Below, piece after piece: positions 1 to 12,630 of a DNA stretch of 64,000 nt. The translations under genes and the position numbers were made by a program. Source of the stretch: Rheinheimera hassiensis (GTDB taxonomy: Bacteria; Pseudomonadota; Gammaproteobacteria; Enterobacterales; Alteromonadaceae); the NCBI RefSeq assembly GCF_022436675.1, contig NZ_JAKUJZ010000005.1:1-64000 (forward strand). Reading direction: 5' to 3'. The notes below the pieces were generated by a model. That model had not been told where the DNA came from and did no database searches. It saw nothing but the letters and a program-made list of their open reading frames with translations. The first letter of the stretch is position 1. Every line of letters begins with the position of its first letter.

Positions 1-54
1 TTTGCGAACCGTTTTAACTCACCCGAGACACCCAAACTGCAGCACCCCGTGGCA

Positions 55-90
55 TGGCGCGCATTATAGGGCGTTTTGAAATACCTGCAA
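55..90 (-). promoter_or_regulatory. Strong rRNA/tRNA-type (rrn P1-like) promoter reading left
   Basis: On the minus strand there is a perfect -10 box TATAAT (63-68), a 16-base spacer and a -35 box TTGCAG (85-90). The bases after the -10 are the GC-rich discriminator GCGCGCC, and AT-rich DNA lies upstream of the -35. A 16-base spacer with a GC-rich discriminator is the hallmark of stringently controlled stable-RNA promoters such as rrn P1 of E. coli. Transcription would start near base 56 and leave the window at base 1. No coding start follows within the window, which fits an rRNA or tRNA leader. The identity of the downstream gene is inferred. Confidence 0.6.
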
Positions 91-171
91 GCGGTTATTT
101 GAGAAAAATGACAGTTTTAATATCGTTAGCCGATTAATTGCACAAAATGCTATAAAAGCAGACAAAATGCG

Positions 172-1314
172 CTACTTTTCACCCGCTCTGATTACTACCG
201 CCGCTTTAAGCCGGCTTTTACCGTAACTAAAGGCTTTGATAAATACACTATGCTCTACCGGAATATATTGCCGCTCAGCAGCAGACAGCCAGGGGATATC
301 TTCAGTGTCGGGATCATTAATGTAGACAAAGTGTTCATCCACTGCACATACCACTACCCAATGCGGCGCTTTGCTTTTATCAAACTGCCAGGTGCTGATA
401 AGCACCAGCAATAAAGCACCATCCTGCAGTAACTGTTTTATCTTGCTGATACCGAGCTCTGAGCGTTGTAGCACTATGCCACTTTGTTCTACTTTTTGCC
501 GGAATGAATCATGCACGCGCTGCAAAATCGCTTTTTTAACTTCACTGCGCACCGTGTCAGTAAATAGCGGGCCTTCTTTATTTAAGAAAACTTCAACTGA
601 AAACCCCCTGTTATGTGCAGCTAAAGCTAAGCCCCTTGGACCACAGCCGCCATGACCTGAGGTCATAAAAATAGTCGTGGCCTCGCGCCAGATATCAATT
701 TCCAAAGCAGTAGGGTCAAACTTGCCCGGTTGAAAATAATTAAACACCATTAATAAGCAAGCCGGCCCACAGGTAAAAGGTGTGGTTTGCACTATATAAG
801 GTACTTGCCGATTTAGCGATCTGTCATTGAATTGAATAGTCTGTTTTTGCATACAGATAGCATCAGAGTGATCTTCGTAAAAGTCATGCTTAACGGCAAA
901 CTCATGGTAATTGAGTTTCTGGTATAAGCGAATAGCAGCCATATTGTCGTAACGCACCTCTAAACGCAGCAATACACAACGCCTGGCTGCCGCCGTTTGC
1001 TCAGCATGCAACATCAGAAACTCTGCTATGCCCTGCTTACGACAGGCAGGGTCAACCGCCAGAGAATATAAACGTGCCAGGCTGGTGCCTCTGCGATAAA
1101 TAAGTAAAAAGTACCCTACTACCTGCTCTGACTGCTCAACCAACAACAGGTCGCTGCGCTTTTCCGCGATAAAGCGTTTAAAGCTACGCAAGCTGATGCG
1201 GTCAGCAGTAAAACACTTATTCTCTAATGCTACCAAGGTAGCCAAATCAGACAAACTGGCATTTCTGATGGATAACATAGCTGTATCTGCGGGTAACGCC
1301 ATAACTACACTCAT
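172..1314 (-). CDS. GNAT acetyltransferase fused to a C39-like (papain-fold) peptidase
   Basis: This 380-residue protein has two domains. Residues 14-155 form a RimI-like GNAT domain with the acetyl-CoA loop around R92-G95-A97. Residues 170-380 form a C39-like cysteine peptidase domain, with the nucleophile in TPFTCGPAC (C182), the histidine in APHWVVV (H318) and the aspartate in YINDPD (D334). The start is the ATG at 1314, preceded by AAAGG. It diverges from the RimK-like ATP-grasp gene at 1467, and the two share a 150-base control region. GNAT, papain-like peptidase and ATP-grasp genes have been predicted to act together in making and processing amide-linked peptides or protein tags. The substrate is unknown, and there is no signal peptide, so it is probably cytoplasmic. 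Confidence 0.85.
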   Translation of the reverse strand: MSVVMALPADTAMLSIRNASLSDLATLVALENKCFTADRISLRSFKRFIAEKRSDLLLVEQSEQVVGYFLLIYRRGTSLARLYSLAVDPACRKQGIAEFLMLHAEQTAAARRCVLLRLEVRYDNMAAIRLYQKLNYHEFAVKHDFYEDHSDAICMQKQTIQFNDRSLNRQVPYIVQTTPFTCGPACLLMVFNYFQPGKFDPTALEIDIWREATTIFMTSGHGGCGPRGLALAAHNRGFSVEVFLNKEGPLFTDTVRSEVKKAILQRVHDSFRQKVEQSGIVLQRSELGISKIKQLLQDGALLLVLISTWQFDKSKAPHWVVVCAVDEHFVYINDPDTEDIPWLSAAERQYIPVEHSVFIKAFSYGKSRLKAAVVIRAGEK

Positions 1315-1466
1315 TATTGCCTTTATCTGGTTTTTAACTAAGTTTAGGATAACACCAGCTAAACAAATGAAAAGCCAACAAGAAATTTAACTGTTGTAGT
1401 GCAGATTTCTTCGCTGTCTTTTGTTGTCACACCACGACATGCTTTAGCAAAATTACAGGAGTCGCA

Positions 1467-2933
1467 ATGGCCAAACTTATTATCGTAGTCGACAAAGCTC
1501 AGGATTGGGCACCTTTTCATCAGTATGATGGCGTAATGACGTTACCGGCCTATTTGAAATGGTCAGCAAAAAATAAACAACGTACCCGGGTGATTAACTT
1601 ATGCCGCCAGGCGCAGTACCTAGGGAGCGGCTATTACTGTTCATTGCTGGCAGAAGCGCGCGGCCATCACGTAGTACCTTCTGTGCGGGCGTTTAATAAA
1701 TTTAACCGCCATGAAATAGCCGATATTGCCGAAGAAATTCCCGGCACTATCTTAACCCAGCTCAACAAAGCTTTAGTTGATGAAACCAGCACGCAGCTTA
1801 TTTTTAATATTTACTTCGGTGAAACTGAGCATAAAGCACTGAAAAAAGTGGCTGGCTACCTGTTTGATGCCTTTTCGGTACCTATACTGCGTGTCGAGTT
1901 GCAAAAGAAAGCTACCTGGCAGGTGAAAACACTAAAAATCGGCAGTGTGCATAAACTGAACGAGCAAGAGCAAAGCTTGTTCGGCAATACGTTGGAGCGC
2001 TATAGCCACAAGATCTGGCGGGTAGAACCGACTAACCGTAAATATAAGTATGATCTGGCCGTATTAGTTGATCCGAAAGAGAAGTTCCCGCCCTGCACGC
2101 CTAAATCGCTGGAACTGTTTAGCAAAGCAGCCAAAAAAGCCGCGATGGATACCGAGCAGATCAGCTCTCGAGATATTCACCGGCTAGCAGAATTTGATGG
2201 TTTGTTTATTCGTGAAACAACCGGAGTGAACCATCATACCTTTCATATGGCATTAAAAGCCGAGCGCGAAGGATTGGCGGTAATTGACGACCCTAACTCG
2301 ATATTGCGCTGTGGCAACAAAGTGTATCTGCAAACCTTATTTGAGCAGCATAAAGTACCGATGCCTGATGGCATTATGCTGTTTAAGCAGGATGAAGATA
2401 ACTTAGAGCGTGCTGCCGACACTCTCGGTTTGCCCTTAGTGCTGAAGATCCCCGACGGCAGTTTTTCCCGCGGGGTGGTAAAAGTAAAAACCCTGACCGA
2501 GTTGCGCTCACAACTTAGTGCGCTGTTTGAGCAAAGCGCGATTATTCTGGCCCAGCGTTATACCTTTACCGAATACGACTGGCGTATTGGTGTGCTGAAC
2601 GGCATGGCCATTTTTGCCTGTAAGTATTTTATGGCACGTAACCACTGGCAAATTTATAAACATGGTAAAGCAAAGACAGAAAGTGGTGGCTTTAGCACCT
2701 GTGCTGTTACTGAAGTGCCATCGCATGTACTTGATGCCGCTATCCGCGCTTGCGCACCTATAGGCGATAGTTTATATGGCGTGGATGTAAAACAAGACGG
2801 CGATAAAGTTTACGTAATAGAAGTTAACGATAATCCGAATATTGATGATGGCGTAGAAGATTTGTTTCTGGGAAATAAACTGTACGACATGATTGTTGAG
2901 GACTTTATTCGCCGTATAGAACTAAAACGGTGA
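1467..2933 (+). CDS. RimK-family ATP-grasp ligase with RLAN-type N-terminal domain
   Basis: This 488-residue protein starts at an ATG preceded by AGGAG. Residues 1 to about 190 resemble the N-terminal domain found in long RimK-like proteins. Residues from about 270 to the end are an ATP-grasp ligase: VLKIPDGSFSRGV carries the nucleotide-binding lysine, and the C-terminal EVNDNPNIDDGVEDL supplies Mg-binding acidic residues and Asn. ATP-grasp enzymes join a carboxylate to an amine through an acyl phosphate. E. coli RimK adds glutamates to ribosomal protein S6 but is about 300 residues, so this longer enzyme is a separate subfamily. The divergent GNAT-C39 partner suggests a ligation/trimming pathway. 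Substrate unknown. Confidence 0.85.
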   Translation: MAKLIIVVDKAQDWAPFHQYDGVMTLPAYLKWSAKNKQRTRVINLCRQAQYLGSGYYCSLLAEARGHHVVPSVRAFNKFNRHEIADIAEEIPGTILTQLNKALVDETSTQLIFNIYFGETEHKALKKVAGYLFDAFSVPILRVELQKKATWQVKTLKIGSVHKLNEQEQSLFGNTLERYSHKIWRVEPTNRKYKYDLAVLVDPKEKFPPCTPKSLELFSKAAKKAAMDTEQISSRDIHRLAEFDGLFIRETTGVNHHTFHMALKAEREGLAVIDDPNSILRCGNKVYLQTLFEQHKVPMPDGIMLFKQDEDNLERAADTLGLPLVLKIPDGSFSRGVVKVKTLTELRSQLSALFEQSAIILAQRYTFTEYDWRIGVLNGMAIFACKYFMARNHWQIYKHGKAKTESGGFSTCAVTEVPSHVLDAAIRACAPIGDSLYGVDVKQDGDKVYVIEVNDNPNIDDGVEDLFLGNKLYDMIVEDFIRRIELKR

Positions 2934-2943
2934 ACTATGGACG

Positions 2944-2968
2944 CAAAAAAACCGGCCTGGGCCGGTTG
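2944..2968 (-). terminator. Terminator of tRNA-Leu
   Basis: Perfect 8-bp stem AACCGGCC/GGCCGGTT at 2950-2967, followed on the minus strand by a run of seven U. It lies just after the 3' end of the tRNA and also faces the end of the rimK-like gene. Confidence 0.8.
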
Positions 2969-2971
2969 ATT

Positions 2972-3057
2972 TGGTGCAGATGGAGAGACTCGAACTCTCA
3001 CGCCTTGTGGGCACAAACACCTGAAGCTTGCGTGTCTACCAATTCCACCACATCTGC
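2972..3057 (-). tRNA. tRNA-Leu (anticodon CAG)
   Basis: An 86-nt class II tRNA on the minus strand. The acceptor arm GCAGATG (3051-3057) pairs with CATCTGC (2976-2982), followed by A and an encoded CCA (2972-2974). The anticodon stem CAAGC/GUUUG closes a seven-base loop with anticodon CAG. A long variable arm and a T-loop GTTCGAG are present, typical of Leu tRNA. Its own promoter and terminator flank it, so it is a single-gene unit. Confidence 0.95.
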
Positions 3058-3092
3058 GTTATGTTTCGCGCTCAGCGCTTAACATGGCGTGC

Positions 3093-3120
3093 AGTATAGC
3101 GACTTTATAAAACCAGTCAA
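3093..3120 (-). promoter_or_regulatory. Promoter of tRNA-Leu
   Basis: On the minus strand: -35 TTGACT (3115-3120), a 16-base spacer, -10 TATACT (3093-3098) and the GC-rich discriminator GCACGCC. This is the same stable-RNA design as the promoter at the left edge of the window. Confidence 0.75.
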
Positions 3121-3180
3121 CTGTGAAAATGCACATTTTGTATCGTTTTATATCGTTCGGACAAATACCAAGCAAGATGC

Positions 3181-4131
3181 TTAGTATTTCGTCTTTTTCA
3201 GTAACCCAATCTCCTCTAAACGCTGCATTAAGTAGTCGTTAGAGTTAATCGGCTCAGGGTAACGATTGGGCCTGTCGGCACTGATGCAGCTATCCAATGT
3301 CTTTATCACATAATCCGGGTTCGGATGCATAAAGAACGGAATTGAATAGCGCGGTTCACCTGCCGCAGCACCTGCCGGATTAACCACTCGATGAGTGGTG
3401 GATGGCAATACATGGTTGGTCAAACGCTGCAGCATATCGCCAATGTTCACCACTATAGTGCCTTCAATAGTGGTTACCGGTAGCCAGCTGCCATCACGGC
3501 GTAAAATTTCCAGCCCGGCTTCATTAGACCCTACCAACAAGGTAATAAGATTAATATCTTCATGCTGGCCGGCGCGAATAGACTGAGTGCTGGTATCTTT
3601 AATTGGCGGATAATGTATAGGCCGTAAAATCGAGTTACCGTAATTTACTTTATCGGCAAAGTAACTTTGCTCTTGCTGCAAAAACAATGCCAGCGCTTCC
3701 AATACGGTATTACCAAGCTTTTCCAACTCGCTATACAGCGCATAAGTAGCTTGCTTAAAACCGTCTACCTCAGTTGGCCAAACATTAGGATATAAGCTGG
3801 GATGCGGTGCAGGGCCATCCAGCTCACGACCCACATGCCAGAACTCTTTTAAATCCGGGTGATTAGAGTCTTTAGCTTTTTCGACGCCAACAGCAGTATA
3901 ACCGCGAGCCCCGCCCTGACCCGGTTTATGGTATTTCGCTTTAACCTCACTCGGTAAAGCGAAAAATTGCTTAATTGCTGTGTAAGTATTTGCTACCACT
4001 TCATCCGGAATACCATGGCCGCTAATGCCGCAGAATCCAAACTCAGTGTAGGCCTTGCCAATTTCGGCAACAAAGTTATCTTTGTCGGTGGCAAACCGTC
4101 TTATATCTAACGTTGGAACTTGCTGTGTCAT
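3181..4131 (-). CDS. Isopenicillin N synthase-like 2OG-Fe(II) dioxygenase
   Basis: This 316-residue protein has the DIOX_N plus 2OG-FeII_Oxy layout. The iron ligands are H and D of GQHEDINL and the H of STTHRVVNP. RYSIPFF supplies the Arg and Ser that usually bind 2-oxoglutarate. The length fits bacterial isopenicillin N synthase-like oxygenases, most of which have unknown substrates and do not make antibiotics. It is the last gene of a three-gene operon with uridine kinase and a nucleoside transporter, 16 bases after the transporter. The link to nucleoside metabolism is inferred from position only. Confidence 0.85.
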   Translation of the reverse strand: MTQQVPTLDIRRFATDKDNFVAEIGKAYTEFGFCGISGHGIPDEVVANTYTAIKQFFALPSEVKAKYHKPGQGGARGYTAVGVEKAKDSNHPDLKEFWHVGRELDGPAPHPSLYPNVWPTEVDGFKQATYALYSELEKLGNTVLEALALFLQQEQSYFADKVNYGNSILRPIHYPPIKDTSTQSIRAGQHEDINLITLLVGSNEAGLEILRRDGSWLPVTTIEGTIVVNIGDMLQRLTNHVLPSTTHRVVNPAGAAAGEPRYSIPFFMHPNPDYVIKTLDSCISADRPNRYPEPINSNDYLMQRLEEIGLLKKTKY

Positions 4132-4147: not shown

Positions 4148-5356
4148 TTAGCCTAAGGAAAAAAAGAGCCCTGCAATAGTAGCGCTCATTAAGTTAGCTA
4201 ATGTTGCCGCAAGTAAGGCTTTTAAACCCAGCTCAGCAATATCAGCACGGCGACTTGGAGCCATTCCGCCCAAACCACCTAATAAAATAGCAATTGAAGA
4301 AAAGTTAGCAAAACCACACAGAGCGATAGTTACTATCACCTGAGTATGAGCGCTTAATTGATCTTTCACTTGCACAAAGTCGAGGTATGCGACAAATTCA
4401 TTAATTACCAGTTTTTGGCCAATAAAACTGCCGGCCATCCGGGCCTCATCCCAGGAGACTCCGAGAATAAAGGCTAACGGTTGAAACACATAACCAAATA
4501 TCACCTGTAGTGTTAAACCTTCAACGCCAAACCAATTGGCAATGCCACCAATAGCGCCATTAACTAATGCAATCAAACCAACAAAAGCCAGCAGCATAGC
4601 ACCAACATTTAATGCCAATTGCATACCGCTGGAGGCGCCAGCAGCAGCAGCATCAATTAAGTTGGTATGCTGAGTATCAGCCTGTATCTCGTTCAACTCA
4701 TTCTTCGGTTGTTCGGTTTCCGGCAAAATGAGTTTTGCCATTAAAAACCCACCCGGTGCAGCCATAAAACTAGCAGCAATCAGGTATTTAAGTTCAATGC
4801 CCAAACCGGCATAACCTGCAAGTACAGAGCCAGCAACAGAAGCTAAACCACCTACCATAACGGCAAATAATTCAGAACGGGTCATGGTAGGGATAAAAGG
4901 CCGAACTATTAACGGCGCTTCGGTTTGACCAACAAAAATATTTGCCGCCGCCGACATAGACTCCGGCCGGCTGGTGCCCAGCAGTTTTTGCAAACCACCA
5001 CCAATAATACGGATAATCCAGGTCATAACACCTATATGGTACAGCACTGCAATTAACGATGAGAAAAAGATAATAATCGTCAGCACATGCACTGCGAAAA
5101 TAAAGCCTTGTGATTTACGGCCGATATCGCCAAACAGAAACTCAATGCCAGAGGTAGCATAACTGATAACATTGGCGACAAAAGCTGAAATGCTGTACAG
5201 CACATCCTGGCCAAAAGGCACATACAAGACAAAAGCCCCTATTGCCAACTGAATTGCAAAGGCACCACCCACGGTGCGCCAATTTATCCGGCTGCGGTTG
5301 GCAGATGCGGCATACGCCACCAGTAACAGGGCAACAATGCCCACTAATCCCATCAT
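4148..5356 (-). CDS. Concentrative nucleoside transporter, NupC/CNT family
   Basis: This 402-residue membrane protein has about ten hydrophobic segments and the CNT-family layout: an N-terminal helix pair, the motif [18 protein letters not shown] in the gate region, and a C-terminal [12 protein letters not shown]. It should import nucleosides by ion symport across the inner membrane. It starts at an ATG with AGGGAA upstream and lies 20 bases after udk. Together with uridine kinase it forms a logical import-then-phosphorylate unit for pyrimidine salvage. The exact nucleoside range cannot be read from the sequence. Confidence 0.9.
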
Positions 5357-5376
5357 ACGTTATTCCCTGATTATTA

Positions 5377-6021
5377 TTATTCAGCCAGCAACTGGCGAAT
5401 TTTTGCTTTTATTATATCGATAGCAATCTGGTTTTTACCGCCGCGGGTCACCACCAGATCGGCATGCTGTTTGGAAGGCGCGATAAACTCAAAAAAAGCT
5501 GGCCTTACGGAGTTTTCATATTGCTCAGTTACCGAGCTTAAACTGCGGCCTCTGTCCTCTAAATCACGTTTTATACGCCTTAACAGGCAGACATCCAGCG
5601 GCGTATCCATAAATACCGTAATATCAAACTGCTCTCTTAACTGCTCATCAGTCAGCAGCAAAATCCCTTCAACCAGAATTACTTTCGCCGGTTGCACCGC
5701 TATAGTTTCGTCAGTACGGGTGTGTATTTTATAGCTATATTGCGGCATTTGTATGGCTTTACCGGCACGTAGCGCGCGCAAATGCGCAGCCAGTAATTCA
5801 TGTTCAAAAGCTGCAGGGTGGTCATAATTAGTTAACGTGCGTTGTTCAAACGACAAATGGCTCTGATCGCGATAGTAGGCATCTTCCGATAAAATAGCGA
5901 TACGCTCACCGCCCAACTCAGCTACCAGTTCCTGGTATACCGTTGATGCAAAAAGGCTTTTACCTGATGCAGAAGCACCGGCAATAGCGATAATAGTATT
6001 TTTTCCCACTGGCACGTTCAC
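5377..6021 (-). CDS. udk: Uridine kinase
   Basis: Phosphorylates uridine and cytidine in pyrimidine salvage. The Walker A motif GASASGKS lies near the N terminus. [19 protein letters not shown] and [11 protein letters not shown] are characteristic Udk segments. The frame is open to an ATG at 6102, but that ATG is inside the terminator hairpin of the upstream TonB receptor gene. The GTG at 6021 gives 214 residues, the usual Udk length, so it was chosen. No clear ribosome site is visible before either, so the start is uncertain. First gene of the udk, transporter, dioxygenase operon. Confidence 0.88.
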
Positions 6022-6072
6022 TTTTGCAGAAATTAGCTGCTGATTATCGCTAATTACGCCTGAATTAGAAAT

Positions 6073-6107
6073 AAAAAAATGCCAGTCGAGTACGACTGGC
6101 ATTTTTA
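6073..6107. terminator. Bidirectional-looking terminator after TonB receptor 1
   Basis: Perfect 10-bp stem ATGCCAGTCG/CGACTGGCAT (6079-6102) with loop AGTA. Seven A precede it and five T follow. It directly follows the stop of the TonB receptor at 6129 on the minus strand. Its core ATGCCAGT is shared with the terminator of the second receptor at 9451-9480. Confidence 0.85.
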
Positions 6108-6128
6108 TTTTACTGTTTATTAAACAGA

Positions 6129-9100
6129 TTAGAACTTATAGCTTAAACCTATGCGAACTTCCCATAGAGAAGGTTCAATACGGCGGTTTTCGGCTGTTGG
6201 CTGGTTGAAGGTATAAACATACTGGCCATTAGCGTTAACACTGGTGGTCACGGCTGACGTCTGTGAACTACCTTCTTTAACAATACCCCAGTCATCATTC
6301 AGGAAATTACCAACGTTCTCCATCACGAAGTAAACGCTACCTTTATGCTCTGCAGTAAAACCTGGGAACTGTTGTTCAACACGAATATCAAACTTATTCC
6401 ACCAGCTACCACTCAGAGCATTACGTGGCATGATGCTGCCGCGATAACCTTCAAGCCCTTGCTCAGTTATCCAGTTGTTAAAATTAGTTTCATTTTCCGC
6501 AGATGCGAAGACAACACTGCTATCGTTTAAAGTTGGAACGTATAACAACTGACGGCTTGCATCGTTAAAACCTAAACCCGAGCTTGAACGGTCAAAGGTA
6601 TAACCATAAGAATTACTCTTAACTACCTGGCCGAATAAACTGAAACGAGTTTCATAGCTTGCAAAAAACTCATGGGCATAAGATAAGTTCAGTGTAAAAC
6701 GATGAGGAATTTCATAGTCGGATGTTGATAAAGCTAAGTTTTCAGTATCTGACGCAGAAACATAGTGGTAATTAGAAAATGCCACCGAACTGTTCATCGG
6801 ATGTACGTCTTTAGAATCAGTATAAGCATATGCTAAAGCGATATCGACGCCATTATCAAAAGACTTAGTGCCTGACAATGAAAAAACCGTAGACCGAGCA
6901 TCATCTCCCTGCCGGTTCGTCAACAGGAAATCATTATTTGAACCACGTCTAGAAGTATATACAGGACGACCGTCTGGCGCGGTGCCGGTTTGATCTAGCG
7001 AGAGGTCCTTGATCAGAGCTGAGTTTTTCTTTCTGCTGTGTAATAGATCTGCAGATACAACATAACCACTGTCAAAGCTGTATGTAGCACCTAAAGCATA
7101 CTTCCACTCAGAAGGGATTTTGAAATCTGGATCTGTGACGTTAGTCGTAGAATCAGCAGTTCCAGAGCCAACCGCATCATACAATGCTTGAGGTACGTCA
7201 TACCCCGGACGGCCTTCACCTGTAAGAGCAACAGCATTTGGCCCTAACAGTTGCATGTCACGTTGGTTAATTTGAATATTGCGTATGCCATCATTGGAGT
7301 AGCTGTTAGAAATCCATACGTTAGGATTACCACCAGAATATAGACCGACACCACCACGAACTTCAAGTTGTTCAGTGGCAACCCAGTTAATACCTAAACG
7401 AGGTTGCAATAGACTTTTGCCATCCAGATTTTGCTGGTTAGAATAACCGTAGCGGTCTTCAAATTTAGCATTATAAGTAGGAACGCTGTCACTGGTATAC
7501 CAGTCATAACGTAAACCTGCCGTAATAGTTACGTCTGCATTAGGCAAACGATACTTATCCTGAGCGTAAACCGTGTGGATATTATATTTAAATTCACCAG
7601 CAGCATCGTTCGGATTATGCGATGAAGCATTACCGTAATAAGCTCTTGCTAAACCATTCCTGAATGCCTCAATACCAGAAAAACGGTATTGACCGACGCT
7701 GTTTTGTACGAATAAGTTGAAAACATCTAAGTTTTCATACTCATATCCAAAATACAGTTCATGGTCGTTCAAATAGTAAGTACCAGCCAGTTTGAAAGAC
7801 AAATTATCGTAATTTAAAATATTGGACTGACGTGAGTCATCAGGGCCTAAATAGATAGTGGTTCCATTTACGCCAAGTACCTGAACTTCACCAAAGCCAC
7901 TGGCGGCATCGATTGACAGCTGGCGATTACGCAACTCAGAGTAACCAAGGCGAACTTCAGTAGAAAAATCTGGCGTCCAATCTGAATATAAAGACGTAAC
8001 ATAAGCATTTAGCTCAGCTCCGCGCTCGTAGAAGTGATTCGATAGTGACAGGCGATCAGAACCAGCATCAGACTGCGCTATAGCGTAACCATCGTTATAG
8101 TTATATAGGAAGTTTGCGCGGTGTAGTTCGTTAATGTTCCAGTCAATCTTCAGCAAAATCTTTTCATCTTCAACCGGCATACTTGGAATTGTAGAACCAG
8201 GATCGTAGTTGTAAACATCTTTTGCAATTGAAGTAATTTCATCTATCTGAGCTTGCGTTACACGACCATTTGCTAAAGGTGCATAATCAAATATCTCTGA
8301 ACCTTCTAACTTTTCATAGGCAAAAAAAGCAAACAACTTATCTTGTACTATCGGGAAGCCAACATTCACACCGTAGCGTTTTTCGTTATAAGAGCCAAGG
8401 TTCTGCTTGTCGCCTTCTAACTTGTCGCCTTTCATCGAATCATTAGTGTAGTCAACGAAAACACTACCGCTAACTTCATTAGAACCTGACTTGGTAACAG
8501 CATTAATATTACAAGCAGTGAAACCGCCATACTTCACGTCAAATGGCGCAAGCTCGACAGCTACCTGATCTATAGCATCAAATGAAAATGGAATCCGCTC
8601 CGTTGGATAACCACTGCTATTCAGACCAAAGTTGTCGTTCATACGAACGCCATCTACCGTTAAGCTGTTAGACCGTGGGCTGCCACCGGCACACTGTATA
8701 GAGCTAGCATTCGTTTCATTGATATAAATGCGGGGATCAGCACGAATTACATCTTTAATATCACGGTTCATTGAAGGCGCAACTTCAAGAGCATAGCTAT
8801 CAAAACGTGCTGATGGACCATTATCACCCGTCAGGCTGGAAATAGCGGTTCCGGCAACCTGAATTCTTTCAATAGTAGATGCTTCTAACTGACGCTGGAG
8901 TTGAAAAGTTTCGCCTAATGTAAGGTAAATATCATTAATTACCGTATCAGCATATGCATCAGAGTCGACGATGATCTGATAAGGGCCACCAACTCTCAAA
9001 CCGGAAGCATTAAAAAATCCACTTTCGTTTACAACTGCCTGCCGGCTTGTGCCTGAAGGTACGTGCAAAATCGTTATTTTCGTACCTGCCGCTGGAGAGC

Positions 9101-9209
9101 CTTGCGGGCTGCTAATTACACCCCGAATGGCTGATGAGGTATCAGCAAAAGCAACGTTTGCTACGCCCATAGAGAGTGCGACAGCAATAGCTAAATATTT
9201 AATCTTCAT
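6129..9209 (-). CDS. Oar-like TonB-dependent receptor (copy 1)
   Basis: This 1026-residue outer-membrane protein begins with a signal peptide ([15 protein letters not shown], cleavage after VAFA). A carboxypeptidase-regulatory-like beta domain follows (about 27-115), then a plug (about 130-260, with [13 protein letters not shown] and [12 protein letters not shown]), and a beta barrel ending in the outer-membrane signature LSYKF. Such receptors take up large substrates (peptides, glycans, chelates) using TonB energy; this subfamily is named after Oar of Myxococcus. Substrate unknown. It is a tandem paralogue of the gene at 9517-12630, with a matching leader and terminator. Confidence 0.9.
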
Positions 9210-9390
9210 ATCGTTTTTTCACCTGGTAGTTGTAGGTATTTATCTAAATCCATTTGAATACAGATGCTGCTTTCAATTTGAGGAATTATGGTAACTAATT
9301 TATATTACATATTTCTTACGCCTAGCCAATTCACGGGAACTTTTAGCTCCTCTTGTTGTCGAGCTCAGTTGACACACAAGTGTAACATGT
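9207..9390 (-). promoter_or_regulatory. 5' leader/promoter region of TonB receptor 1, duplicated upstream of receptor 2
   Basis: About 180 bases before the start codon align closely with 12628-12815. Shared blocks on the plus strand include CATATCGTTTTT, AGGTATTTAT, ATTTGAATACAGA, CAATTTGAGG, CGGGAACTTTT and AAGTGTAACAT. The conservation extends well past the ribosome site, so promoter and probably operator sites were copied along with the gene. Apart from this, the 9210-9516 gap holds only the receptor 2 terminator. Confidence 0.7.
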
Positions 9391-9450
9391 GAATTGTTTG
9401 ATGCGAGAAAAACAAGCAAAAAAAGGTCAATAAATCAGCTCCTTTACCTG

Positions 9451-9480
9451 AAAAAAAAATGCCAGTTTAAGAACTGGCAT
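9451..9480 (-). terminator. Terminator of TonB receptor 2
   Basis: 9-bp stem ATGCCAGTT/AACTGGCAT (9459-9480) with loop TAAG, followed on the minus strand by a run of nine U. The stem core is shared with the terminator of receptor 1. Confidence 0.85.
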
Positions 9481-9516
9481 TTTCAGGTCAATAAATCCGT
9501 TTAACCGGTTGAACTA

Positions 9517-12500
9517 TCAGAAGCGATAACTCACACCTAATTTGAGACGCCAGGTTGATTGCTCCGGCTCATATTTATCCCAGTTATCGGTAATTGGGTC
9601 TCTGAACGGTTTTTCATAAATATAACGGCCCTCACTGTCTAACCCGCCAAAATCAACTATAGAGTTAGTCGTGTACTCCATACGGCGAACTTCCCCTTTA
9701 GAACTATCTATCAGGTTAAGCAAGTTACTAATGGTAAAATAGAATGAACCTTTATGACCTTTCGCAAAACCAGGTAAATCTTGTTGGAATTGGAAATCTA
9801 AAGTATTCGTCCAAGGGGTTTCACCCACACCTTTAGGAGCAAAACCACCTGCATACTTACCCAAGCCAACCTGATTTAGGTAGGACATGATTTCATCATA
9901 TTGCATGCCGTCAGGGCTAATATTTGGGTCATCAACACCTGTTGGTACGTAAACTAAATAAGCACTGCTACTGAAGAACTTTGAGTTATCACCAAAGCCA
10001 CGGTCTTGGTATAAACCAAAAGTACGGCTGAAATGCGTACCTGAGCGCCTCTGGAAAAACAGATTAAACTTAGAGTCATAACCTTCAAAGAACTGGTGCG
10101 TGTAACCTAAAACTAATTTCAGTGAGTGTTGGATTTCATAGTCAGCACGGCCTATTAACGTTTCGTTTCTATCAACAACAACATTATATTGATAGTTTGA
10201 ATCCGCAGTCGATGAAGTTCCTGGCGTACCTTCATTAATATCTTGGTAGGTGTAAGATGCATAAGCAGTAAATCCACTATCCCAATTTTTGTTGAAGCTA
10301 GTCGTGAAAATTAACGCATCGCCGCTACTTTTTTCATTAGTGAGCATTAAATCATAATGATTTTCTTTAGCTGTAGGATCACATGGTTGATAGATATTAA
10401 CGCCAGCACTTGTTTCCCCGTCCTTACAACGAGACACATCAGTCCAACGGTTGTTATCAACCATCCACTTCTTCATAACCTCAGCAGAAAAGTTAACATC
10501 TTCAACTACATTTGGCACAGAGAAAACATAGTCAGCACCTACACGAGCAATCCAATCAGAAGGAATTTTATAGTTAGGATCAATAAAGTTAGTGAAACCA
10601 TCACCAGGGAACATAGCATCTTGAACGTTTTGCGGCACAGTTAAAGACGTAACATTAGATAAATGCGAGGTACCAGCAACTGCTGCATCATAACTAACCA
10701 ATGTTGTGCCATCGTTTGAAAATGAGTTGGAGATATAAACATTGGGTTTACCTCCAGAGAAGCGTCCAAAACCAGCACTCAAGGTTAAGTCGTCGGTAGC
10801 CGTCCATTTTACGTTAACACGTGGCATTAAAATTGACAGGCCATCCAAATTCTCCTGATTAGAAAAACCGTAACGACCAACAAAAGTATCATTCAATGCT
10901 GGCTTATCACTTACGAAGAAACGCTCGTAGCGTAAACCCAAACCAATTTCAATATCATCATTAAAATACCACTGGTCCTGAACATACAGGTTGGCAGACC
11001 CGAAAGTAAACTCAGCTGCAGCATCACTTGCAACATTAGTGTAAGCATTATCATATGTAAACTGGCTGGCAGAACCAGCTTCAAAAGCATCGATGTTTTC
11101 GAAAGTCCAAACACCTAAAGCTCTGCGAACAAAAGCATTGTAAACATCAAGTGAAGCGTACTCACCACCGAACTTCAAGCTGTGATCACCAACTAAGTAA
11201 TTGAATTTAACACCAAATTTTAATTCATCAGTATTCAACGCATTGGCATGGCGAGCCTCATCCGGACCAAAGTTCAATAAACTACGGATCACTATTTCGC
11301 CGTATTCTTCAGTTTTATTGCCCGAAACAGAATCTACAGATTTAAGATTAATATAAGCTTCACTTGACAGATCAGGAGTCCAGTCAGAGAACAGTGCAGC
11401 ACGATACATATCCATTTTTTGCGTATAGGTATACCAGTGCGTATCAAGGTTTAATACACCGTTACTACTTGTTGTCTGGTTACGGACTGAACTACCTTCG
11501 CTTGAGTTATAAGTAAAAGCCGCACGATGCTCGTGGTTGATATTCCAGTCAAGTTTAACAAGAATACTTTCGTCTTTGATTTCTGGGGAGTTTCCCCATG
11601 AACCGATATCATCAATGCCATAACGTGACTGAGCGATCGCTTTGACGCGCGCTAACTCAGCTTCAGTTATCGTTGCTTCGTTTATCGCGCCGCTTCCCTT
11701 CGGCCCAGCAGTAACCTGAGCAGGTTCAGTGGTCTTCTCGTAAGCACCGAAAAAGAACAACGTATCTTTAATTAACGGCCCACCTAAAGTTAAACTATAT
11801 GTGTCACGTTCGAAATCTAAGTCTGACTCGACACCAGTCTTTGGATTTTTTGATTTGCCAGCCCATGAGTCTGACATTTTTTCATATGTCAAAGAGCCGG
11901 TAAATTCATTGGTACCTGACTTAGTTACTGCATTAATACGACCGCCACTAAAATTACCTTCAGCAGCATCAAAAGGTGCTACGTCAACAGAGATCTGCTC
12001 AATTGCATCAATAGAAATAGGTGAGCGCTGTGTAGGATAGCCGTTGCTATTTAAACCAAAATCATCGTTTACACCAACACCATCGATAGTGGTACTGTTA
12101 TATTTTGGGTTACTACCCGCAATACTCATTTCAGCATTAGCACCAGGTAGGATGTTTGCATACGGATTCATCCGTGCGACTTCTTTTAAATCGCGGTTAA
12201 ATGTTGGCGAATTAGCGATATCATCTTCACCAAAATAACTACTACTGCCTGCATTATTACTACCAACAATTCTGGTTCCAGAAACAGACACTCTCTCAAT
12301 TTGTTCTAGTTGAGCATTTAAACGTAACGTTTCACCAAGTGAAATAAAGATATTTTCGTAGGTTTTAGCGCCTGCGGAGCCAGTAATAGTAATAGTATAG
12401 GGACCACCAACTCGCAGACCTGAACTAGAAAATGCACCTGAAGAATTTGTAGTAGCAATAGATCTTGTACCAGATGGCACATGAACAATTTCAACTTTGG

Positions 12501-12630
12501 TATTTGGTGCAACTTCACCATTCTGTGTAACAATGTTACCGCGAATCGACGATGTAGTTTCCTGCGCCATTGCTATATTAGTAGCACCTAAAGCCAGCGT
12601 TACTGCAAGCGCTATACTCTTAACTTTCAT
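9517..12630 (-). CDS. Oar-like TonB-dependent receptor (copy 2)
   Basis: This 1037-residue paralogue of the 6129-9209 gene has the same plan: signal peptide MKVKSIALAVTLALG with cleavage near AMAQ, a carboxypeptidase-regulatory-like domain (about 28-112), a plug with VGVNDDFGLN and AVTKSGTNEFTG, a large barrel and a C-terminal LGVSYRF. Both copies share the phrases [13 protein letters not shown] and FNRDLK or MNRDIK, but the barrel loops differ strongly, which suggests different ligands. Each copy has its own leader and terminator, so they are separate transcripts, possibly under shared control. Confidence 0.9.
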   Translation of the reverse strand: MKVKSIALAVTLALGATNIAMAQETTSSIRGNIVTQNGEVAPNTKVEIVHVPSGTRSIATTNSSGAFSSSGLRVGGPYTITITGSAGAKTYENIFISLGETLRLNAQLEQIERVSVSGTRIVGSNNAGSSSYFGEDDIANSPTFNRDLKEVARMNPYANILPGANAEMSIAGSNPKYNSTTIDGVGVNDDFGLNSNGYPTQRSPISIDAIEQISVDVAPFDAAEGNFSGGRINAVTKSGTNEFTGSLTYEKMSDSWAGKSKNPKTGVESDLDFERDTYSLTLGGPLIKDTLFFFGAYEKTTEPAQVTAGPKGSGAINEATITEAELARVKAIAQSRYGIDDIGSWGNSPEIKDESILVKLDWNINHEHRAAFTYNSSEGSSVRNQTTSSNGVLNLDTHWYTYTQKMDMYRAALFSDWTPDLSSEAYINLKSVDSVSGNKTEEYGEIVIRSLLNFGPDEARHANALNTDELKFGVKFNYLVGDHSLKFGGEYASLDVYNAFVRRALGVWTFENIDAFEAGSASQFTYDNAYTNVASDAAAEFTFGSANLYVQDQWYFNDDIEIGLGLRYERFFVSDKPALNDTFVGRYGFSNQENLDGLSILMPRVNVKWTATDDLTLSAGFGRFSGGKPNVYISNSFSNDGTTLVSYDAAVAGTSHLSNVTSLTVPQNVQDAMFPGDGFTNFIDPNYKIPSDWIARVGADYVFSVPNVVEDVNFSAEVMKKWMVDNNRWTDVSRCKDGETSAGVNIYQPCDPTAKENHYDLMLTNEKSSGDALIFTTSFNKNWDSGFTAYASYTYQDINEGTPGTSSTADSNYQYNVVVDRNETLIGRADYEIQHSLKLVLGYTHQFFEGYDSKFNLFFQRRSGTHFSRTFGLYQDRGFGDNSKFFSSSAYLVYVPTGVDDPNISPDGMQYDEIMSYLNQVGLGKYAGGFAPKGVGETPWTNTLDFQFQQDLPGFAKGHKGSFYFTISNLLNLIDSSKGEVRRMEYTTNSIVDFGGLDSEGRYIYEKPFRDPITDNWDKYEPEQSTWRLKLGVSYRF

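Follow-up and report, generated by a model that had tools for sequence, protein, structure and literature searches.

A linked GNAT-C39 fusion protein and RLAN-RimK ligase in Rheinheimera hassiensis: a candidate system for a small N-capped peptide

Gene neighborhoods that combine RLAN-ATP-grasp ligases with GNAT and papain-like peptidase domains were reportedly described, together with a functional prediction, by Iyer et al. in 2009 (Mol BioSyst 5:1636). Here, we analyzed such a pair in a 64,000-nucleotide stretch of Rheinheimera hassiensis DNA (assembly GCF_022436675.1, contig NZ_JAKUJZ010000005.1, positions 1 to 64,000; the window), in which the gene for a protein that fuses a GNAT acetyltransferase domain to a C39-like cysteine peptidase domain is divergent from the gene for a ligase with RLAN and RimK-type ATP-grasp domains. 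The window shares with the 2009 neighborhoods the domain families, the fusion and, reportedly, the gene neighbors, and departs from them in nothing; the pair is an already predicted kind of system, of which the window holds an ordinary example. Pfam has entries for both families (RLAN, PF14401; DUF3335, PF11814), and a passage of PMC10318531 mentions the GNAT-DUF3335 fusion and cites Iyer et al. 2009, so that the prediction by comparative genomics to which an earlier note on this DNA had alluded can be traced to that paper by citation. What may be new is the exchange of the ligase's partners for GCS2 and FGase enzymes, which was not found among the matches listed in a literature search (subscription papers were outside its scope); no study of the GNAT-C39/RLAN pair was among the matches listed either, and the literature searched held no assigned substrate for an RLAN ligase. 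The divergent arrangement is confirmed, with a gap of 152 bases where 150 had been stated:

172 to 1314, minus strand: GNAT-C39 fusion protein, 380 residues (open reading frame; Pfam PF00583 and PF11814)
1467 to 2933, plus strand: RLAN-RimK ATP-grasp ligase, 488 residues (open reading frame; PF14401 and PF08443)
1315 to 1466, no strand: 152-base gap between the divergent genes (sequence; one weak promoter-like match)

We read the pair, at about even confidence, as a two-protein system that would assemble and recycle a small N-capped peptide inside the cell. Judging from its sequence family, the GNAT domain would acetylate an amino acid or a short peptide at its amino group; the RLAN-ATP-grasp ligase would, by family, activate a carboxylate of the capped molecule with ATP and join it to an amine; and the fused C39-like cysteine domain would reopen the amide or transfer the acyl group, with an M14-like DUF2817 enzyme, where present, presumably contributing to degradation. 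In a sister lineage, the partners of this kind of ligase would be GCS2, a capping ligase of gamma-glutamyl type, a stand-alone C39 protein, and an enzyme resembling N-formylglutamate amidohydrolase (FGase). All substrates and products, the direction of reaction and the order of steps are inferred from sequence. The earlier note had assigned addition to the ligase, capping to the GNAT and removal to the peptidase, and this division of labor appears reasonable; tagging of ribosomal-protein tails, which it had suggested testing, is not supported.

By analogy, synthesis of N-acetylglutaminylglutamine amide (NAGGN) is the nearest proven logic to the proposed cycle. According to a portion of PMC8070244, Ngg acetylates one glutamine and links it to another, a peptidase gene adjoins, and the product is an N-acetylated dipeptide. 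The asnO-ngg operon (PA3459-PA3461) resembles the window pair in combining N-acetylation, peptide ligation and a neighboring peptidase gene, and in the Ngg model TIGR03103 the window GNAT matches one stretch, of GNAT type, and RimK another, of ATP-grasp type. However, Ngg performs both steps in one protein of a family of its own, the peptidase-like part in the window is a C39-like cysteine enzyme, and no amidotransferase lies beside the window pair. The pair as NAGGN synthetase itself was rejected: the window GNAT scores 35.9 bits against 569 for TIGR03103, and nothing in the genome exceeds the cut-off. Capping first, as in NAGGN synthesis, would suit the GCS2 alternative better than capping last. 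The RimABK system also pairs a RimK-family ligase with a protease, as described in a part of PMC11957791, but the window ligase belongs to another subfamily, with an RLAN domain, and RimB is retropepsin-like and of another protease class. Double-glycine C39 leader peptidases share the C39-like fold, whereas the fusion partner in the window is a GNAT and there is no ABC transporter. BtrJ acts in butirosin synthesis, and with BtrH it offers a likeness in joining a papain-like fold enzyme to amide-bond chemistry, to which a weak BtrH-N match of the window protein may be added; in contrast, no aminoglycoside or carrier-protein genes were seen beside the window pair.

The domains of the two proteins, their intact catalytic residues, the linkage of the genes and the alternative partner sets are direct observations. 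Linkage was measured in three samples, drawn at the level of order (197 genomes), class (369) and phylum (398), which overlap in genomes. RLAN occurs in 41, 81 and 72 of these genomes, respectively, DUF3335 in 31, 57 and 58, and both in 31, 56 and 57, where 6.5, 12.5 and 10.5 would be expected; Fisher p values run from 8e-28 to 1e-53, assuming independence and ignoring shared ancestry. DUF3335 was counted only above 100 bits, which set aside 5 of 62 class, 1 of 32 order and 0 of 58 phylum genomes. The conservation across relatives for which the earlier note had asked a search is thus found at all three levels, and the genes are not mostly apart, the outcome it had held to be adverse: 56 of the 57 class genomes with DUF3335 also have RLAN, and in 53 of those 56 the pair is on one contig, with the two domains within 2.7 kb (in the other three, the genes are on different contigs). 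The 53 same-contig pairs comprise 42 tandem C39-to-ligase arrangements, 2 tandem ligase-to-C39 and 1 convergent, while the divergent layout of the window is a minority of 8; these shares come from the class sample only, 60 of the loci used elsewhere having been hand-picked and 80 others being those closest to the window. One partnership kept in four gene layouts speaks against an inherited chance arrangement. DUF3335 without RLAN was seen in one class genome (G349) and one phylum genome (G567); in the phylum sample, the pair lies far apart on one contig in G566 and on two contigs in G726.

The fusion protein matches Acetyltransf_1 over residues 29-136 (61.8 bits) and DUF3335, "Peptidase_C39 like" (PF11814), over residues 171-376 (264.1 bits, cut-off 25), and 25 of its residues match double-glycine C39 (PF03412) at 23.6 bits (cut-off 22). 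Cys182, His318 and Asp334 are present as the earlier note had claimed and, together with Gln176, which we take to be an oxyanion-type Gln, are identical in all 93 fused proteins compared (the window protein and 92 relatives, hand-picked or from the nearest loci, near relatives kept in); the loss of catalytic residues in most homologs, which that note had also considered adverse, was not seen. Glu119 and Asn124 of the GNAT domain are invariant in the same 93 proteins.

838 to 1284, minus strand: GNAT (RimI-like) domain (custom profile match; TIGR01575)
184 to 822, minus strand: DUF3335 / C39-like cysteine enzyme domain (custom profile match; PF11814)
787 to 789, minus strand: Gln176 codon (Q in 93/93)
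769 to 771, minus strand: Cys182 codon, presumed nucleophile (C in 93/93)
361 to 363, minus strand: His318 codon (H in 93/93)
313 to 315, minus strand: Asp334 codon (D in 93/93)

GNAT and DUF3335 are fused in one frame at every locus scanned in the order sample (30) and in the class sample (30), and in all 38 class genomes checked out of the 57 with DUF3335. Against the RimI model TIGR01575 (equivalog cut-off 86.4), the window GNAT scores 84.9 bits in a protein scan and 87.9 in a genome scan, and a likelier RimI, at 124.9 bits, lies elsewhere in the genome. At one locus of Chiayiivirga flava (L204:3723-6001), GNAT and C39 are in different reading frames, and in Pseudomonas sp. BCA17 (L235:5349-5846) the GNAT part adjoins the ligase, with no C39 match even with filters off.

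The ligase matches RLAN over residues 28-174 (146.9 bits, cut-off 25) and RimK over residues 284-460 (31.5 bits, cut-off 21), and by family it would be an ATP-dependent peptide ligase. Its RLAN gene is the only one found by a profile scan of the genome. The seven residues listed with the ATP-grasp domain are invariant in ligase alignments of 14 and 42 sequences and are identical in two further RimK-family proteins of this genome. Because many genomes carry full-length relatives, the open reading frames of the window are no chance reading frames.

1548 to 1988, plus strand: RLAN domain (genome scan, 150.1 bits)
2316 to 2846, plus strand: RimK-like ATP-grasp domain (Pfam; K285, K327, D371, R373, D440, E452, N454)

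Two types of cassette surround this ligase: one with GNAT, mostly fused to C39 and sometimes joined by DUF2817, and one with a separate C39-like protein without GNAT, GCS2 and FGase (as assigned by Pfam on representatives). Among the 25 class genomes that have RLAN without DUF3335, 13 carry the full GCS2-type cassette, 3 a partial one (two with the C39 protein only, one of them at a contig end, and one with GCS2 only), 8 a stand-alone GNAT (one of these with the ligase in pieces) and 1 none of these partners, as counted by profile searches of stop-to-stop frames with profiles that were built from the same loci and partly score their own seeds. All 10 order genomes with RLAN but no DUF3335 have a stand-alone GNAT, 8 with weaker profile scores of 68-83 bits. 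No GNAT was found within about 5 kb on each side of the GCS2 loci in 14 genomes. In a tree of 149 ligases, the GCS2/C39-type ligases (15, including L274, whose only partner is C39) form one clade, 15 of 15 with a support of 1.0, and the GCS2 type requires 1 change where 200 shuffles required at least 12; because these ligases form one clade, the switch to the GCS2 cassette probably happened once. GNAT alone and GNAT-C39 do not split cleanly on the tree (17 changes over four labels; at least 41 in shuffles).

At 85% conservation within each type, a single position separates the two types of ligase (L52, in the RLAN domain, vs Gln), while 43 positions are near-invariant across both, and a profile comparison relates the C39 domain of one cassette type to that of the other (96.9%, E 1.6e-10). 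Our inference is that the ligase has an unchanged task in the two cassettes, its substrate being capped by GNAT in one and by GCS2 in the other. Small molecules are converted to gamma-glutamyl amides by GCS2 enzymes, and the GCS2 and FGase families act on free amino acids or small amides; that GCS2 works on small molecules favors a small substrate for the ligase as well. FGase and DUF2817 were rejected as homologous replacements of each other, the profile comparison giving a probability of 1%. Of the 80 named loci nearest to the window, 76 encode GNAT, 55 of them together with C39 (at L204 in another frame); the four that lack GNAT are L183, L200 and L228, where the contig ends too soon, and L219, where 6 kb of upstream sequence shows none. 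At one locus (L121:3725-6284), a single ligase is accompanied by a GNAT-C39 fusion as well as a stand-alone GNAT, with a DUF155 gene between these two.

Further genes recur beside the pair. DUF2817 lies between GNAT-C39 and the ligase in 12 of the 80 named loci (one cut, with no GNAT visible), is absent from the GCS2 loci in profile searches, and has been gained and lost on the ligase tree (10 changes; at least 13 in shuffles). It is M14-like by a weak match to the solved protein REP34 (E 1.7e-4), presumably a carboxypeptidase. As a partner for the window it was rejected: none is adjacent, and the genome holds a partial match (24.7 against 23, over 79 of 341 positions) and another below the cut-off. 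The acetylornithine deacetylase gene argE adjoins the GNAT-C39-ligase set in at least 13 class genomes, a floor, since many of these loci extend just 1-1.5 kb upstream; four of the proteins, tested against a cut-off of 460, scored 544-577 bits, and at L171 argE is followed by an N-acetylglutamate synthase gene (argA; 684 bits against 344). ArgE enzymes act on N-acetyl amino acids, and these neighbors place N-acetyl-amino-acid chemistry beside the pair. Profile matches locate argE, among other class loci, at:

L162:7516-8667: argE
L165:2861-4102: argE
L168:2549-3730: argE
L171:630-3221: argE and argA

A gene of the DUF155 family (RMND1/Sif2-Sif3/Mrx10) is a repeated neighbor of cassettes of both the GNAT type and the GCS2 type, and the family has been linked to mitochondrial translation. 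An early list of recurrent neighbors was rough, gene calling having favored antisense open reading frames in G+C-rich loci. Profile matches locate DUF155 at:

L121, L124, L163, L166, L174, L176, L186, L254, L271, L279: DUF155 gene

The explanation nearest to the earlier note is modification of a protein tail in the manner of RimABK, with the ligase adding residues to a protein end, the GNAT capping it and the cysteine enzyme trimming, and we consider it unlikely. The ligase does resemble the RimK family (TIGR00768, 77.1 bits), the GNAT resembles RimI, a protein N-terminal acetyltransferase, the recurrent DUF155/RMND1 gene is a possible tie to translation, and a proven analogue exists in RimK together with a protease that takes glutamates off RpsF (a section of PMC11957791). 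However, 77.1 bits is below the rimK_fam cut-off of 143.4, and the window ligase was rejected as an S6 ligase on its 22.5 bits against the NF007764 equivalog cut-off of 331, which a separate S6-glutamate ligase of the same genome passes at 502.3 bits. The seven contacts reported to bind polyglutamate in Pseudomonas RimK are S7, R8, S14, R64, S68, R189 and N262; in an alignment of 22% identity whose N-terminal part is uncertain, R64, R189 and N262 are kept across the ligase family (at R249, R373 and N454), the other four are lost, and the window ligase alone adds a Ser at the place of S14. These results, the stronger RimI elsewhere in the genome and the GCS2/FGase partners, which suit small substrates, speak against tagging of ribosomal-protein tails, although a protein target other than S6 is possible. 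The swap of partners around shared, conserved ligase residues favors a small N-capped peptide over such a tail.

A different chemistry, which we judge improbable, would make the C39-like domain an acyl- or peptidyl-transferase that takes the acyl group from a ligated intermediate onto Cys182 and passes it to an amine, like BtrH or phytochelatin synthase. Compared with solved structures, the DUF3335 profile hits a double-glycine C39 protease (E 0.0005) and next BtrH-N-like structures (E 0.008), and PMC10318531 assigns BtrH_N to an acyltransferase that is a close relative of C39, and treats phytochelatin synthase alongside. Nevertheless, the BtrH matches are marginal, covering 43 profile positions, with a plainly unrelated dehydratase next at E 0.024; no carrier-protein gene is among the recurrent neighbors, under rough gene calling; and the Cys/His/Asp/Gln set does not discriminate between hydrolase and transferase.

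Several points count against the small capped peptide that we favor. The argument from shared chemistry draws on just 15 GCS2-type sequences, and the view of FGase and DUF2817 as counterparts is an analogy between profiles without sequence relation. The cysteine domain is dispensable, since eight class genomes have GNAT and lack DUF3335. The argE link is largely confined to one region of the ligase tree (5 changes; at least 8 in shuffles, with a mean of 11), where the common ancestor of the carriers covers 32 of 64, and argE is found in none of the 80 loci nearest the window; much of the link may be inherited gene order, and for this reason it adds no confidence to the peptide reading. Known RimI-like GNATs (RimI, Naa10) act on protein N-termini, which fits a protein substrate too, and the literature searched gave no substrate, product or phenotype for the pair.

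A wider claim is tentative and, on balance, doubtful: a capped peptide, glutathione- or osmolyte-like, may have been missed that exists in two versions, acetyl (by GNAT) and gamma-glutamyl (by GCS2), built by one ligase family and subject to C39-like turnover or transfer. As part of the same doubtful claim, about one in five of the genomes sampled from the phylum would make such a peptide. If the ligases make a shared metabolite, a widespread part of bacterial small-molecule biology is unannotated (RLAN is found in 81 of 369 class and 72 of 398 phylum genomes), and if the swap reading is true, the two cassette types give products that differ in their cap.

Two other roles were rejected. A role in anti-phage defense is set aside because neither protein matched any PADLOC family (0), and recent plasmid cargo is set aside with ligase relatives on only 12 plasmid records, all below 60% identity and 7 of them Azospirillum replicons, in a mobile-element check that covered plasmid records. 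One of the plasmid relatives, on a Pseudomonas aeruginosa record (NZ_CP133752.1:38465-39931), has 46.7% identity. Elsewhere among the sampled genomes, G730 has its pair on contig C1 and two more DUF3335 genes on contig C15 (C15:30144-40372), in opposite orientations and separated by about 9 kb, and in G346 the ligase matches in three pieces (L275:4699-6154).

In the genome of the window itself, the S6-glutamate ligase gene is followed directly by an AstE/AspA-type amidohydrolase gene (L286:1498-3470, contig C33), a parallel pairing of ligase and hydrolase, and a second RimK-family ligase (L287:1408-2361, contig C22; 195.9 bits), above the family cut-off and below that for S6 ligases, overlaps the start of a 277-residue reading frame on the same strand. 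The closest named relatives among the matches listed are Rheinheimera baltica, at 95% over the 293 residues on its contig, and an Alishewanella relative, at 79%, though nearer ones may be missing. NCBI places the genus under Chromatiales, not in the order Alteromonadales as the earlier note had implied. Promoter-like matches in window positions 1-3200 number 4, against 5.7 in shuffles, the weak one in the gap included. Downstream of the ligase, on the opposite strand, is a tRNA-Leu gene, and window positions 4148-12630 hold, in one direction, a nucleoside transporter gene, a uridine-kinase-like gene and two TonB-type outer-membrane receptor genes, both of which carry carboxypeptidase-regulatory domains.

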